This document shows, one piece after another, positions 26,978 to 64,000 of a stretch of 64,000 nucleotides of DNA. Under the pieces are notes generated by a model, which was given only the letters and a program-made list of their open reading frames with translations, was not told the DNA's origin and did not search any database. The translations under genes and the position numbers were made by a program. The DNA is from Opitutia bacterium. GTDB taxonomy: Bacteria > Verrucomicrobiota > Verrucomicrobiia > Opitutales > Opitutaceae. The stretch's first letter is position 1, and each line of letters begins with the position of its first letter. The stretch spans positions 18,269-82,268 of the forward strand of contig JACPPI010000029.1 in the NCBI GenBank assembly GCA_016190985.1, given 5' to 3'.

Positions 26978-27060
26978 GGGCGCAGTCTTGCTGCGCCCAC
27001 GTGTCTGCTTTTGTGGGAGCGACCTTGGTCGCGACAGTCGCGTGCAAGCACGCTCCCACA
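26976..27060. repeat. Palindromic elements after rarA, including a 49-bp TGTGGGAGCGACC element
   Basis: TAGGGGCGCAGTCTTGCTGCGCCC (26976-26999) is a short hairpin starting at the rarA stop. At 27012-27060 is a 49-bp element beginning TGTGGGAGCGACCTTGGTCG and ending CACGCTCCCACA. Nearly the same 49-bp sequence occurs at 35647-35695, and a third, also 49 bp, lies inside the xanthine dehydrogenase gene at 63035-63083. Confidence 0.8.
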
Positions 27061-35646: not shown

Positions 35647-35695
35647 TGTGGGAGCGACCTTGGTCGCGACTGTCGCGTGCGAGCACGCTCCCACA
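35647..35695. repeat. 49-bp palindromic element, TGTGGGAGCGACC family
   Basis: This copy begins TGTGGGAGCGACCTTGGTCG and ends CACGCTCCCACA. It differs from the copy at 27012-27060 at only two positions that I can see and has exactly the same length. It lies between the 3' ends of convergent genes. Confidence 0.8.
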
Positions 35696-43991: not shown

Positions 43992-44746
43992 GCATCCACT
44001 CCACCGCCATCGTCGAGGAGGGCGTCACGCTCGGCGCGGGCTGCGTCGTGCACGCCGGCGCGATCATCAAAAAACACTCCGTGCTCGGCGCGGGCGTCGT
44101 GGTGCATCCTTTCGCCGTCATCGGCGGCGACCCGCAATACCTGAAGTTCGACCCGTCGATCATGTCCGGCGTGCGCATCGGCGCCGGCACCGTGATCCGC
44201 GAGCACGTGACGGTCAACCGCTCCATCCATGCCGGCCAGGCCACCGTGATCGGCGCGCGCTGTTTCCTGATGGCCAACTCGCATGTCGGCCACGACAGCG
44301 TGGTGGCGGACGACGTGGTGCTCGCCAACAACGTCATGCTCGCCGGCCACGTGCAGGTCGGCGGCCACACCTTTCTCGGCGGCGGGGCGGGCTTCCACCA
44401 GTTCTGCCGCGTCGGCGAGGGCGTCATGGTCAGCGGCCTCGCCCGGATCGCGCTCGACATCCCGCCCTTCGCCATGGCCGCCGAGCGCAACGAGATCATC
44501 GGCCTCAACCTCATCGGCCTCAAGCGCCGCGGCTTCAGCCGCGCCGCCATCGGCGAGATCAAGGAGGCCTTCCGCGCCGTCTATTTCACGCCGGGCAACA
44601 TCCGCGATGTGGCGAAGGCCGCGCTGGCGGGCGACGCCTTCAAGACCGACGAGGCGCGGCGGTTTCTGACTTTCTTCACCGAGGGCAAACGCGGCTTTGC
44701 GCGCGCCCGCCGCGAGGCGATGGCGGGGGACGGCGATGGCGACTAG
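43988..44746 (+). CDS. lpxA: Acyl-ACP:UDP-N-acetylglucosamine O-acyltransferase
   Basis: The 252-residue left-handed beta-helix enzyme performs the first step of lipid A synthesis. It starts with hexapeptide repeats (VEEGVTLGAGCVVHAGAIIKKHSVLGAGVVV), has FAVIGGDPQYLKF and GTVIREHVTVNRSI, and the catalytic-histidine loop LMANSHVGHDSVVADDVVLANNVMLAGHV. GLNLIGLKRRGFSRAAIGEIKEAFRAVYF begins the helical C-terminal domain. The pdxA start lies 11 bp before its end. Confidence 0.95.
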   Translation: MSIHSTAIVEEGVTLGAGCVVHAGAIIKKHSVLGAGVVVHPFAVIGGDPQYLKFDPSIMSGVRIGAGTVIREHVTVNRSIHAGQATVIGARCFLMANSHVGHDSVVADDVVLANNVMLAGHVQVGGHTFLGGGAGFHQFCRVGEGVMVSGLARIALDIPPFAMAAERNEIIGLNLIGLKRRGFSRAAIGEIKEAFRAVYFTPGNIRDVAKAALAGDAFKTDEARRFLTFFTEGKRGFARARREAMAGDGDGD

Positions 44747-45719
44747 ACTCGCCATCACCTGCGGCGATCCCGCCGGCGTCGGTCCCGAGATCATCGCCGC
44801 GTGGTTCGCCGCCCATCCCGGCGAGGCGGCGGAGGTCGCCGTCATCGGCCCGGCCCGGTGGCTGGAGACACTGCCGGCGGCCGCCACGAAAATTCCGGTC
44901 GGGCTGGCGGAATTCGCAGCGACGCCCGGCCGGTCCGACGGTGAAGGCGCGTTGGTCGCCTGGGCGGCGATGGAGCGCGCCGCCGCCGGCTGCAAGTCCG
45001 GCGAATTTTCCGGAGTCGTCACCGGGCCGGTCAGCAAGACCGCGCTGGCCAAGATCGGCTACGAATTTCCCGGGCAGACGGAATTTTTCGCCGCGCGCTG
45101 GGGTGGCGAGCCGGTCATGGCCTTTTGCGGCGGCCGGTTGCGCGTGGTGCTGGCGACCTGGCATGTGCCGCTCGTCGAGGTGCCGCAGTTGCTCGGGCCG
45201 CAGCTCTTGCGCCGCACGGTCGCGGCGGCCGACACGCTGGCCCGGGCTTTTCCCCCTGTGGGAGCGAGCTTGCTCGCGACCGGGCTGGAGTCGCGAGCAA
45301 GCTCGCTCCCCCAAAATTTTATTCCCCGCATCGGCGTCTGCGGGCTCAACCCGCACGCGGGGGAGGGCGGCCTGCTCGGCGAGGAGGAGAAGGATTTCCT
45401 CAATCCGGCGCTGGAGCACCTGCGCGCGGAATTTCCCGGGCTCTCACGGTGCGAGCCGGGCGACACATTGTTCGCGCGCGCGCTGCGCGGCGAGTTCGAC
45501 GTCGTCGTGGCGCTGTATCACGATCAGGGCCTCGCGCCGCTGAAGGCCGTCGATTTCGACGAGGCCGTGAACGTCACCCTCGGCCTGCGGTTCGTGCGCA
45601 CCAGCCCGGACCACGGCACGGCCTTTGGGATCGCGGGGCAGGGAAAGGCCAGCGGGCGCAGTTTCGCCAACGCCGTGGCCGTGGCGCGGCGCTTGATAAA
45701 ATTCCGTTCCCGGGCATGA
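44736..45719 (+). CDS. pdxA: 4-hydroxythreonine-4-phosphate dehydrogenase with repeat-encoded insertion
   Basis: Starting at MATRLAITCGDPAGVGPEI the enzyme has 327 residues and acts in pyridoxal phosphate synthesis. Family motifs include VVTGPVSKTALAKIGYEFPGQTEFF, GVCGLNPHAGEGGLLGEEE, LYHDQGLAPLKAVDFDEAVNVTLGL and RTSPDHGTAFGIAGQGKA. Residues about 174-193 (PVGASLLATGLESRASSLPQ) are not part of the normal family and are encoded by an in-frame 57-bp palindrome at 45257-45313. The insertion sits in the loop before the RIGVCGLNPHAGEGG strand. It overlaps lpxA at the start and the A-type carrier gene at the end (ATGA). Confidence 0.94.
   Translation: MATRLAITCGDPAGVGPEIIAAWFAAHPGEAAEVAVIGPARWLETLPAAATKIPVGLAEFAATPGRSDGEGALVAWAAMERAAAGCKSGEFSGVVTGPVSKTALAKIGYEFPGQTEFFAARWGGEPVMAFCGGRLRVVLATWHVPLVEVPQLLGPQLLRRTVAAADTLARAFPPVGASLLATGLESRASSLPQNFIPRIGVCGLNPHAGEGGLLGEEEKDFLNPALEHLRAEFPGLSRCEPGDTLFARALRGEFDVVVALYHDQGLAPLKAVDFDEAVNVTLGLRFVRTSPDHGTAFGIAGQGKASGRSFANAVAVARRLIKFRSRA
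45257..45313. repeat. In-frame palindrome inside pdxA, TGTGGGAGCGAGC family
   Basis: TGTGGGAGCGAGCTTGCTCG, then a CGGGCTGG centre, then GAGCAAGCTCGCTCCC form an almost perfect stem. At 57 bp it equals 19 codons. The outer arms are shared with the 49-bp elements at 27012, 35647 and 63035. Confidence 0.9.
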
Positions 45720-59173: not shown

Positions 59174-59917
59174 ATGCCCGACCTCTTCGGCCACACCCGC
59201 GCCCGCATCGCCGCCCGCCACGCCCTCATCACGCCGGGCAATCACGTCAACAGCTCGGTCCCGGGCATCGCGGGCGCGACGGCGGTCGTGCTGATCAACG
59301 AGGCCATGGGCGCGAAGTTCGCGCAGCTGCTCGTGACCTTCGCCGCCGACGGCCGCGCCGCGCAGCCCGCGAGCGGCACGCAGACCTTCGGCTATGTGAT
59401 GCACGGCGGCGGCGCGCTGACGGTCGGCAAGGACAAGGCGAAAATCGCCGCCGGGGGTTTCTTCTACGTGCCCGCCGGGCAGCCGTGGAGCCTGACCGCA
59501 CCGAAGGCCGGCACGCAGCTCACGCTCTTTCAGAAGAGATATGTCGCGCTGCCCGGCACGCCGCTGCCCAAGGCCATCATCGGCGACGCGGCCAAGGTGA
59601 AAGGCACGCCCTTCCTCGGCGACCCGGCGGCCAATCTGCAGGTGCTGCTGCCCGACGAGCCGGCCTTTGACCTGGCCGTGAACATCTTTGCCTACCAGCC
59701 CGGCGGCCACCTGCCGTTCGTCGAGGTGCACGTCATGGAGCACGGCCTGCTCATGCTCGGCGGCGCGGGCGTTTACCGGCTCGAGGACAGCTGGTATCCG
59801 GTGCAGGCGGGCGACGTGATCTGGATGGCGCCGTATTGCGCGCAGTGGTTTGTCGCCATGGGCAAGGTTCCGGCGAGCTATCTCTATTACAAGGATGTCA
59901 ACCGTCCGGCCATCTGA
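59174..59917 (+). CDS. allE: (S)-ureidoglycine aminohydrolase, bicupin
   Basis: The 247-residue double cupin has PGNHVNSSVPGIAGATAVVLINEAMGAKFAQLLV at the N-terminus. The metal-binding second cupin reads PGGHLPFVEVHVMEHGLLMLGGAGVYRLEDSWYPVQAGDVIWMAPYCAQWF. It releases ammonia from ureidoglycine produced by allantoate amidohydrolase and also protects stereochemistry. ATG at 59174 is chosen; TTG at 59168 overlaps the allB stop. Its end overlaps the xanthine dehydrogenase start by 23 bp. Confidence 0.92.
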   Translation: MPDLFGHTRARIAARHALITPGNHVNSSVPGIAGATAVVLINEAMGAKFAQLLVTFAADGRAAQPASGTQTFGYVMHGGGALTVGKDKAKIAAGGFFYVPAGQPWSLTAPKAGTQLTLFQKRYVALPGTPLPKAIIGDAAKVKGTPFLGDPAANLQVLLPDEPAFDLAVNIFAYQPGGHLPFVEVHVMEHGLLMLGGAGVYRLEDSWYPVQAGDVIWMAPYCAQWFVAMGKVPASYLYYKDVNRPAI

Positions 59918-62900
59918 CCCGGCGGCCCCGCCCAGTCTCGACCTCATCGTCAACGGCCGGGCCGTCTCCACCGCGGGGGTCGCGCCCACCACCACGCTGC
60001 TCGCGTGGCTGCGCGCCCACGGCCTGACCGGCGCGAAGGAAGGCTGCGCCGAGGGCGACTGCGGCGCGTGCTCCGTGGCGCTCGTCGATCGCGACGCGAA
60101 CGGCCGGGCGGCCTACCGCGCCTTCAACAGCTGCATCGCGCTGGTGCCGATGTTTGCCGGCCGTGAGATCGTCACCGTCGAGGGCCTGGCCCAATGCGGC
60201 GCGGACAAAAAGCAGCTGCACCCGGTGCAGGCCGCGATGGTCGAGCACTACGGCTCACAATGCGGCTACTGCACGCCGGGCTTTGTCGTCTCGATGTTCG
60301 AGGCCTACTACCGCGACGGCTGCAAGGAGCCGTGGCAGATCAGCGACCAGCTCTGCGGCAACCTCTGCCGCTGCACGGGCTACCGGCCGATCCGCGACGC
60401 CGCGGTCGCGGCGCTCGAACAGCGCCCGGTGGCGGACGATGTTTTCGCGCAACGGCTCACCCGGCCGGCACGTCCGCCTGATGCGCTCAACTACACCGTC
60501 GGTGAGGCGAAATTCTTCCGCCCCACGTCGCTGCCCGGCCTGTTCACCCTGCTGGAATCCTACCCGACGGCCCAGCTCGTGGCCGGCGCGACCGAGATCG
60601 GCGTGGAGCTGAACAAGAAATTCAAGGCCTTCCCGCTGCTCATCTCGACCGAGGGCGTGCCGGAGCTGACGCGCATCACGGCGACGGACGAGGCCTGGCA
60701 CATCGGCGCCGGCGCCACGCTGACCAATGTCGAGGAGGCGCTCGGCGGCGAATTTCCCTCCGTCGCGAAGATGCTGCGCGTCTTTGCCGCCCGCCAGATC
60801 CGCAACCGCGCCACGCTCGGCGGCAACCTCGTGACCGCCTCGCCGATCGGCGACAGCGCCCCGGTGCTGCTGACCCTCGACGCCAGCGTCGTGCTCGTCA
60901 CCGCCAAGGCCGAGCGCACGGTGCCGCTCAAGGATTTCTTCACCGCCTACCGCAAGACCGTGCTCCGGCCCGGCGAGGTCATGCGCGAGATCGTGCTGCC
61001 GCGCGGCGGGCCGAAGCGCGGGCGGACGCGGCGGGTGGATTTCCTCAAGGTTTCCAAGCGCCGCGAGCTGGACATCAGCATCGTGGCGGCGGCGTTCTGC
61101 GTGGACCTCGACGAGGCGGGCACCGTGCGCCGGGCGCGCATCGCCTACGGCGGCGTGGCGGCGATGCCGCTGCGCGCGCTCAAGGCCGAGAAGGCGCTGG
61201 TCGGCAGGAAACTGGACGACTCCGCGGTGGCGCACATCCTCCATGGCACCTTCAAGCCGATCGACGACGCGCGTGGCGGCGCCGACTACCGGCGCGAGCT
61301 GGTCGTCAGCCTCTGGGCGAAGTTTGTCTCGGGTGAGCGGAGCCAGGCGCAGGACGCCGATCTCGGCTTTGCCGGCGACCACCGGTGGCCGGTGGCCGAT
61401 GCCTCCCGGAATCTCGGCCACGAAAGCGCCGTCGGGCACGTGACCGGCCGGGCCATGTATGTCGATGACACGGCGCAGCGCCGGAAGATGCTCGACTGCT
61501 GGCCGGTGTGCTCGCCGCACGCGCGCGCGCGAATCCTGCGCCGCGACGCCATCAAGGCCCGGCAGGCCCTCGGCATCCACGCCGTGCTGCTGGCCGAGGA
61601 CATCCCGGGCGAGAACAACACCGGCCCGGTGCGGCACGACGAGCCGCTGCTCGCGAAGGACGAGGTTCTTTTCCACGGCCAGATCGTCGCGTGGGTGGTC
61701 GGCGAGACGCTGGCGCAGTGCCGCGCGGCGGCGGCGCTGGTCGAGGTGGACTACGAGCCGTTGCCCGCGATCATCGGCCTGCCGGCGGCCCTCGCGGCGG
61801 GCAGCTACCACACCGAGCCGCATGCGCTGAAGCGGGGCGATGCGGCGGCGGCGTTCGCGGCCGCGCCGGAGAAACTCGAAGGCGAGTTCGGGTTCGGCGG
61901 GCAGGAGCATTTCTACCTGGAGACGCATGCGGCCTGGGCCGAGGCCGGCGAGGACGGCACCGTGCTGGTGAACTCCTCGACGCAGCATCCGTCGGAGATC
62001 CAGGCCATCGTGGCCGAGGTGCTGCATGTGGCGCGGCACAAGGTTGTCGTGCAGGCCCCGCGCATGGGCGGTGGCTTCGGCGGCAAGGAGACTCAGGGCA
62101 ACGGCTTCGCGGCGCTGGTGGCGCTGGCGGCGGTGAAGACCGGCCGGCCGGTGCGCGTGCAGCTCGACCGCGATCTCGACATGAAGCTGACGGGCAAGCG
62201 GCACCCGTTTCACTCGAAATTCTCGGTCGGCTACAACCGCGAAGGCCGGCTGCTGGCGGCGTCGGTGGCCTTGGTGTCGGACGGCGGCTGGTCGCTCGAC
62301 CTGTCCACGGCGATTTGCGACCGGGCCTTGTTCCACCTCGACAACGCCTATTACATCCCGACCGTGGATTTCAGCGGGCGCGTGGCCAAGACCAACGTGA
62401 CCTCGCACACCGCGTTCCGCGGCTTCGGCGGGCCGCAGGGCATCATGGTCATCGAGGAGATCATGGACCGCGTGGCGCGGCGGCTCGGCCTGCCGCCCGA
62501 GGCCGTGCGCGAGCGCAACCTCTACCACGGCACGGGCGAGACCAACCGCACGCACTACAAGGAGGACATCGGCGACAACCGCATCCAGGACATCTGGGCG
62601 CAAGTGCTCGCCAAGGCGGACTTCGCGAAGCGCCGCGCCGAGGTGGACGCCTGGAATCAGGCGAACCCGCACATGAAGCGCGGGCTGGCGGTGACGCCGG
62701 TGAAATTCGGCATCAGTTTCACGCTGTCGCACTACAACCAGGCCGGCGCGCTGGTGCACATCTACCAGGACGGCTCGGTGCAGGTGAACCACGGCGGCAC
62801 GGAGATGGGGCAGGGGTTGCACACGAAAATTCTCGGCGTGGCGATGCGCGAGCTCGGGTTGCCGGCTTCGAGCATCCGATTGATGACGACCAGCACCGAC

Positions 62901-63752
62901 AAGGTGCCGAACACCTCGGCCACGGCCGCCTCGAGCGGGGCGGACCTGAACGGCGCGGCGGTCGCGGCGGCCTGCGTGACCTTGCGGGAAAGATTGCTGC
63001 CGGTGGCGGCGGGCTTGCTGGGTGCGGCTTCACCTGTGGGAGCGAGCTCGCTCGCGACTGTCGCGACCAAGGTCGCTCCCACAAATACTGATCTCCAGGA
63101 AATCGTTTTCGAAAACGGCGAGGTGTTTGCGAAGTCGAATCCGACCGTCCGCCTTCCCTTCGCCAAGGTCGTCGCCAAGGCCTACACCGAGCGCATCAGC
63201 CTTTCCTCGACCGGCTACTACAAGACACCCGGCGTGAAGTGGGACTGGGTGAAGGCCGAGGGCCGGCCGTTCCACTACTTCGCCTGCGGCGCGGCCGTGG
63301 CCGAGGTGGAGGTGGACGGATTTTCCGGCATGCACCGCGTGCGGCGGGTGGACATCGTCCATGACGTCGGCGACTCGCTCAACCCCGGCGTGGACCGCGG
63401 CCAGATCGAGGGCGGCTTCGTGCAGGGCATGGGCTGGCTGACGCGCGAAGAGTTGAAATGGGACCAGGAAGGAAAACTGCTCACGCACAGCGCCAGCACC
63501 TACCAGATCCCCGCGTTCAGCGACGCGCCGGTCGAGTTCAACGTCACGCTGCTGCCCATGGCGGCGCAGCCCAACGTCGTCCACGGCAGCAAGGCCGTGG
63601 GCGAGCCGCCGCTGATGCTGGCGTTCTCGGTGCGCGAGGCCCTGCGCGACGCCGTGGCGGCGTTTGGTGCGGCCGGAGGCGAGGTGCGGCTGGCCTCACC
63701 CGCGACCGGCGAGGCGATCTTCGCGGCGATTCAGCAGAGGCTGAAACATTGA
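59895..63752 (+). CDS. xdh: Single-chain xanthine dehydrogenase (XdhA-XdhB fusion)
   Basis: From MSTVRPSDPAAPPSLDLIVNG the protein has 1285 residues in the order of the eukaryotic enzyme. First are the [2Fe-2S] ferredoxin domain (KEGCAEGDCGACS at 49-60) and helical [2Fe-2S] domain (CGYCTPGF ... NLCRCTGYRPIRDA). The FAD domain spans about 200-480 (VAGATEIGVELNKK, IRNRATLGGNL). The molybdopterin domain runs from about 510 (RMGGGFGGKETQ, TAFRGFGGPQG, EMGQGLHTK, catalytic Glu in VGEPPLML). It oxidises hypoxanthine and xanthine to urate with NAD. Most bacteria split this into two subunits. Residues about 1047-1063 (PVGASSLATVATKVAPT) come from an in-frame palindrome. It ends the purine operon seen here. 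Confidence 0.93.
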   Translation: MSTVRPSDPAAPPSLDLIVNGRAVSTAGVAPTTTLLAWLRAHGLTGAKEGCAEGDCGACSVALVDRDANGRAAYRAFNSCIALVPMFAGREIVTVEGLAQCGADKKQLHPVQAAMVEHYGSQCGYCTPGFVVSMFEAYYRDGCKEPWQISDQLCGNLCRCTGYRPIRDAAVAALEQRPVADDVFAQRLTRPARPPDALNYTVGEAKFFRPTSLPGLFTLLESYPTAQLVAGATEIGVELNKKFKAFPLLISTEGVPELTRITATDEAWHIGAGATLTNVEEALGGEFPSVAKMLRVFAARQIRNRATLGGNLVTASPIGDSAPVLLTLDASVVLVTAKAERTVPLKDFFTAYRKTVLRPGEVMREIVLPRGGPKRGRTRRVDFLKVSKRRELDISIVAAAFCVDLDEAGTVRRARIAYGGVAAMPLRALKAEKALVGRKLDDSAVAHILHGTFKPIDDARGGADYRRELVVSLWAKFVSGERSQAQDADLGFAGDHRWPVADASRNLGHESAVGHVTGRAMYVDDTAQRRKMLDCWPVCSPHARARILRRDAIKARQALGIHAVLLAEDIPGENNTGPVRHDEPLLAKDEVLFHGQIVAWVVGETLAQCRAAAALVEVDYEPLPAIIGLPAALAAGSYHTEPHALKRGDAAAAFAAAPEKLEGEFGFGGQEHFYLETHAAWAEAGEDGTVLVNSSTQHPSEIQAIVAEVLHVARHKVVVQAPRMGGGFGGKETQGNGFAALVALAAVKTGRPVRVQLDRDLDMKLTGKRHPFHSKFSVGYNREGRLLAASVALVSDGGWSLDLSTAICDRALFHLDNAYYIPTVDFSGRVAKTNVTSHTAFRGFGGPQGIMVIEEIMDRVARRLGLPPEAVRERNLYHGTGETNRTHYKEDIGDNRIQDIWAQVLAKADFAKRRAEVDAWNQANPHMKRGLAVTPVKFGISFTLSHYNQAGALVHIYQDGSVQVNHGGTEMGQGLHTKILGVAMRELGLPASSIRLMTTSTDKVPNTSATAASSGADLNGAAVAAACVTLRERLLPVAAGLLGAASPVGASSLATVATKVAPTNTDLQEIVFENGEVFAKSNPTVRLPFAKVVAKAYTERISLSSTGYYKTPGVKWDWVKAEGRPFHYFACGAAVAEVEVDGFSGMHRVRRVDIVHDVGDSLNPGVDRGQIEGGFVQGMGWLTREELKWDQEGKLLTHSASTYQIPAFSDAPVEFNVTLLPMAAQPNVVHGSKAVGEPPLMLAFSVREALRDAVAAFGAAGGEVRLASPATGEAIFAAIQQRLKH
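63035..63083. repeat. In-frame 49-bp palindrome inside xdh, TGTGGGAGCGA family
   Basis: TGTGGGAGCGAGCTCGCTCG, CGACTGTCGCG, then ACCAAGGTCGCTCCCACA form the hairpin. Length (49 bp) equals the intergenic copies at 27012 and 35647. The open frame continues through it, adding about 17 residues between the LRERLLPVAAGLLG helix and LQEIVFENG. Confidence 0.9.
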
Positions 63753-63773: not shown

Positions 63774-63849
63774 CGTGTCATCCTGAGTGAAGCGAAGGAT
63801 CCAGCTCTTTTACGGATGCAGTGGATTCTTCACTCCGCTCAGAATGACA
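63774..63849. repeat. Inverted repeat downstream of xdh
   Basis: GTGTCATCCTGAGTGAAGCG and CTTCACTCCGCTCAGAATGACA pair (GATCC/GGATT inner ends). A lone ACCACGGAT arm precedes it at 63752. The remaining 150 bp to the window edge have no CDS I can support. Confidence 0.7.
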
Positions 63850-64000
63850 TGAATTTGAATCAGTAGCATCTCACAGCGGATGAGCAAGCCGATGCAACCG
63901 CTTGCGATTGAACGCAAGCCGGGGCGCGTGAAGGAAAGTAGCGGTTGATAATTTTCTGGATGAAAAGTGATCTTACTCGGGTGCGTTCACGCGGGCTGTC

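Follow-up and report, generated by a model that had tools for sequence, protein, structure and literature searches.

The window, the 64,000-nucleotide stretch of DNA analysed here, contains an open reading frame (ORF) on the forward strand (59850–63752) in which the XdhA and XdhB parts of xanthine dehydrogenase (XDH) are fused, with scores above the NCBIfam cut-offs for both (TIGR02965, 966 bits; TIGR02963, 473 bits) and translation likely starting at an ATG codon at ~59895. Genes for allantoinase and ureidoglycine aminohydrolase precede the XDH ORF, which thus fits a purine-degradation cluster. Within it, at 63035–63083 (+), lies an imperfect palindrome of 49 bp, composed of two 24-nt arms, TGTGGGAGCGAGCTCGCTCGCGAC (63035–63058, + strand) and TGTGGGAGCGACCTTGGTCGCGAC (63060–63083, − strand), that are 88% complementary and separated by a 1-nt spacer; its RNA folds into a strong predicted hairpin (−34.4 kcal/mol, z −6.3). 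Together with its flanking bases the element encodes PVGASSLATVATKVAPT, and the frame is open throughout, with no interruption around it. An earlier note had described a 49-bp repeat at this place within the molybdopterin domain of XDH; the arms, spacer and uninterrupted ORF bear out the element, and the Pfam domain MoCoBD_2 (919–1227), which spans the insert, bears out its position. Arm pairing, copy number and RNA fold identify it as an inverted pair of repetitive extragenic palindromic (REP) sequences, REPIN-like, of the family termed A below. A second repeat-like palindrome directly follows the xdh stop codon (63776–63850; TGTCATCCTGAGTGAAGCGAAGGATC ... GATTCTTCACTCCGCTCAGAATGACA), and its opening 12 bases recur in L136, L209, L231 and L269.

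The arm of the XDH element belongs to a sequence of high copy number. With at most one mismatch, TGTGGGAGCGA occurs nine times in the window, where 1.6 occurrences are expected, and none of 100 shuffles reaches nine; the 24-nt arm TGTGGGAGCGANCTNGNTCGCGAC, searched genome-wide with up to three mismatches so that more diverged copies are missed, has 127 matches (61 + 66) in the 2.95-Mb genome and none for its reversed control. Counted from pattern matches and fetched genome stretches, at least 67 family-A elements are present in this Opitutaceae genome (G000); 49 of the 67 are inverted pairs, most of them 49–62 bp long and with spacers mainly of 1, 8, 9 or 14 nt, the 1-nt spacer of the XDH copy being found in 21. 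A codon-usage test places ~51 of the 67 outside coding frames; two intergenic 49-bp pairs in the window lie just downstream of an ORF end (27012–27060, +) and between convergent ORFs (35647–35695, +). The terminal tag of family A is GTGG (tGTGGgag), not the GTAG borne by the related REP families found at the XDH site. A REP-associated tyrosine transposase (RAYT) of 174 aa is encoded at C30:79392–79916 (NF047646, 85.5 bits against a cut-off of 80), with family-A arms on both of its sides (79306–79367 and 79919–80017; pairs within C30:79306–80017). High copy number, inverted pairs, a mostly extragenic position and a RAYT gene between copies are features of the REP/REPIN class (GTAG superfamily), and we read the XDH segment as a REPIN-type element of a GTAG/GTGG-tagged REP family whose RAYT resides in the same genome. 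To our knowledge, introns and inteins are all far longer than the 49-bp XDH element.

The remaining ~16 of the 67 elements lie within ORFs by the codon-usage test, a heuristic for which Pfam checks cover two UvrA-like proteins, Mfd, QueG, PdxA and XDH only, all of them confirmed as carriers. Judging by the look of the sequence, further carriers are presumably a helicase, an aldehyde dehydrogenase, a lipoate-ligase-like protein and two glycosyltransferase paralogs, to which we would add what we take to be an MFS transporter, a sulfatase and a CbiX-like protein. The UvrA-like ORFs L199 (G000 C3:20079–23102) and L001 (C3:23382–26443) have one family-A REP each, and one of the two lies within a 2029-aa frame, apparently a doubled UvrA; the neighbouring glycosyltransferase-like paralogs L013 and L014 carry a 62-bp element at an equivalent position (aa 434 and 437; G000 C32:122843–122904 and 125147–125208), and the helicase-like gene L043 contains two inserted REPs, each read in phase 0 (G000 C21:36015 and 36186).

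The claim that two unrelated enzymes carry one repeat family in frame, with the peptide PVGAS-LAT in common, holds for XDH and PdxA, both confirmed by profile (pdxA, 44697–45719, +; TIGR00557, 300.6 bits, above cut-off) and both with the element read in phase 2 (offsets of 3185 and 560 from the respective ORF starts). Their likeness is one of family and frame; the sub-type differs, the pdxA pair (45257–45313, +) being 57 bp long with a 9-nt spacer. Nor does the shared frame extend beyond these two genes as a general property. Among 12 copies with the TGTGGGAGCGA arm along the gene, six are in phase 0 (CGSELARD), five in phase 2 (VGAS-LAT) and one in phase 1, three more single arms in ORFs read SRASxLPQ, and neither arm contains a stop codon in the frames observed. 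Since intragenic copies use all three frames, a common frame is rejected as a rule for family A, and that of the XDH and pdxA elements looks like coincidence.

Comparison with XDH orthologs without the repeat, proposed in the earlier note, identifies the segment as an insertion and not an ancestral part of XDH: the 13 orthologs of the genus comprise seven with empty sites, two that carry this element and four in which other palindromes occupy the position. In the wider ortholog scan (73 rows in the tree), one XDH loop is filled, always in frame, by four or more REP families of unrelated sequence in different Verrucomicrobiota: family A in the window, L082 and L084; family B (GTAGGTCGGG) in L137, L054 and L102; family C/C2 (GTRGGAGSGGCTTTA) in L138, L092 and L086; and the CGTC-type family D (GACGTGAGGAGnCTC) in L118, L123 and L125, from subdivision-3 and related Verrucomicrobia. 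Inserts at the loop keep the frame in all orthologs, the B and C elements (48 and 72 bp) both being multiples of three. These families are themselves repetitive in carrier genomes, with family B at 83 copies in G005, 43 in G013 and 306 in G057, family C/C2 at 48 in G010, 17 in G015 and 194 in G057 (C is low, at 4, in G058), and family D at 54 in G060 and 39 in G061 (low, at 2, in G059), against 0 to 1 control match per strand in most genomes. Across 274 kb of XDH ORFs, 12 orthologs carry a REP of families A–D at the loop; away from it, such REPs are limited to L123 and L125 (D) and L102 (B), the D copies lying in a second part of the enzyme, the linker that joins the iron-sulphur domain to the FAD domain. 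A looser family-E pattern matches some XDH ORFs, including this linker in L082 and L090. With positions mapped by hand, the linker palindromes of L082, L090, L123 and L125 lie near query aa 190–212, and the off-loop family-B copy of L102 near query aa 299.

XDH is not alone in having one loop reused by different REPs: similar turnover is found in mfd, where G000 and four relatives carry family A, the site in G013, G018, G012 and G035 holds different palindromes whose ends are GTAGGGCG-like, and several other genomes have short empty sites. The pdxA element is common to G000 and G004 only, with a 15-nt empty site in most other orthologs; at the UvrA site of L199, two relatives have family A, and matches to any further recognised REP family are unconvincing.

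Traces of an older occupant are discernible beside the XDH insert. Directly 3' of the A element, L056 has AAAATCCGACCTACAGG, which matches the family-B end AAAGCCCGACCTACAGG at 15 of 17 positions, and the corresponding segment of the window (63083–63099, +), probably what is left of an earlier family-B REP, matches at 12 of 17, as does that of L053; the figure for L054, which bears B, is 14 of 17. The A-bearing loop exceeds the 63-nt empty sites by 66 nt, 17 more than the 49-bp element itself. From these sequence comparisons, family A appears to have inserted into an older B copy in the XDH loop, with B partly lost. A targeted form of re-colonisation, in which new REPs prefer existing REPs or hairpin-forming DNA and an early insertion turns the loop into a landing pad, would agree with the B-like ends beside family A in the window, L053 and L056, with the retention of B at the same place in L054, and with the several families at one site in both XDH and mfd. 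This preference is possible but doubtful, as a clear nested remnant is seen in one loop only, and the pattern could also arise from empty sites and a tolerant loop by themselves.

The A-bearing XDH genes do not form one clade (AU test, p = 4e-44), whereby a single clean vertical inheritance of the insert is rejected on the XDH tree, although XDH itself may recombine; the result counts against the explanation otherwise preferred here, in which a single insertion must be supplemented by loss, replacement or between-species exchange of the loop. Arrival of family A at the XDH site through repeated independent insertion or between-species recombination, in place of inheritance, is an alternative that can be entertained tentatively, being suggested by the scatter of A-bearing genes on the tree and by the sequence beside the insert, where L084 is closer to the window (48/60) than to its sister L090 (18/46). 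The XDH copies of the window and L084 are identical (49/49) between flanks that are ~85% identical. Against independent arrival, XDH is the only place in G000 and G007 with the exact 49-mer, which differs by three bases from the common genomic form, and the shared junctions and B remnant favour one insertion, which local recombination may have moved. That the common genomic form converted the XDH copy is not supported, the exact 49-mer being unique to XDH in both genomes.

What we regard as the simplest mechanism, and a likely one, is RAYT-driven insertion of low specificity, followed by selection for in-frame copies in tolerant loops. The RAYT of the genome very probably moves the non-autonomous family-A palindrome, and a REPIN would have entered XDH in an ancestor common to some or all of the lineage, landing in a surface-type loop at a helix–strand junction of the molybdopterin domain that may already have held older, unrelated family-B remains. 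Insertion would proceed with little target specificity, selection would remove out-of-frame and core insertions, and in-frame copies in flexible loops or linkers would persist as a translated, probably neutral, extra peptide; with few insert-tolerant loops, and perhaps also old REPs as landing sites, the same loop would come to be filled by families that differ among lineages. The flanks of 98 arm ends have only a −1 pyrimidine in common, and no strict target sequence was found beyond it. In the modelled XDH domain, insert residues 181–189 have pLDDT <50 and lie between a helix (141–175) and a strand (200–203), consistent with a predicted flexible loop; when the query is aligned to mammalian XDH, its residues 1053–1091 stay unmatched between adjacent chain positions. 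A missing target motif and an insert in a low-confidence loop, unaligned to the mammalian enzyme, point to insertion with low preference and subsequent selection for frame and flexible sites.

The neutrality of the extra peptide is called into question by the conservation of the arms. Between G000 and G004, 46 of 48 third codon positions are kept in the arms of the XDH, pdxA and mfd elements, against 1120 of 1611 in the flanking host genes, and 13 of 22 bases are kept in the spacers; the G000 copies entered this comparison on the strength of their match to the consensus, so that part of the arm conservation is bias, and the corrected value is p ~0.02 (a rough hand estimate, with half of the flank divergence assumed on the G000 branch). 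A useful peptide or hairpin, acting for example as a translation pause or domain spacer and kept by selection, would account for the low synonymous divergence of the arms relative to flanks and spacer, for the very stable RNA hairpin and for the full identity of the XDH copy between the window and L084. It is nevertheless improbable, given that the peptide is wholly different where other families or frames fill the site, that many orthologs have none, and that the conservation is inflated by the choice of copies. No benefit to the XDH enzyme is in evidence, and the extra peptide is probably neutral.

Several properties of family A have precedents in published repeat systems. In Pseudomonas fluorescens SBW25, inverted REP pairs form a unit and the RAYT gene is flanked by the same REP, as here, whereas 14 of 1,067 REP 16-mers overlap genes in that genome (Bertels and Rainey 2011, PMC3116915), compared with the ~16 of 67 elements within ORFs described above. 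The main text of Di Nocera et al. (2013, PMC3733652) describes GTAG REPs located inside genes, with the highest numbers in Opitutus terrae, and with REP dimers 1–2 bp apart (GTAG-17), a GTGG-tagged variant in O. terrae (GTAG-20), and inserts inside ORFs that encode 20–30 amino acids, uvrA genes being among those struck, including in O. terrae. Family A resembles the O. terrae REPs of that text in bacterial family, dimers, GTGG tags, in-ORF inserts, uvrA as a host gene and RAYT-flanking REPs; XDH and pdxA were not found as REP carriers in its main text, and its recB case, with different REPs at about one site, involves two Xanthomonas only, unlike the four or more families at one site across a phylum observed here. 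Thus in-frame REPs in Opitutus genes are already published, and no earlier description was found of the occupation of one XDH loop by many REP families. The Rickettsia palindromic elements (reviewed in PMC10969869) are similar in being palindromic DNA placed in frame in many unrelated genes and readable as an extra peptide, but their length is given as ~150 bp, whereas family A is mostly 49–62 bp and of different sequence.

For annotation, the short peptides VGASLLAT, CGSELARD and others derived from these repeats should be read as mobile DNA and not as conserved motifs. The XDH loop provides a natural series in closely related species, empty or filled by several unrelated palindromes, and opens two questions to test, namely whether REPs target old REPs, and how selection confines mobile DNA to tolerant loops. 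A broader proposal, that protein loops of Verrucomicrobiota are inherited landing pads passed between REP families, with the translated palindromes kept at the DNA level while host genes drift, is rather unlikely; if true, such loops would constitute a lasting niche for mobile DNA inside coding sequence.
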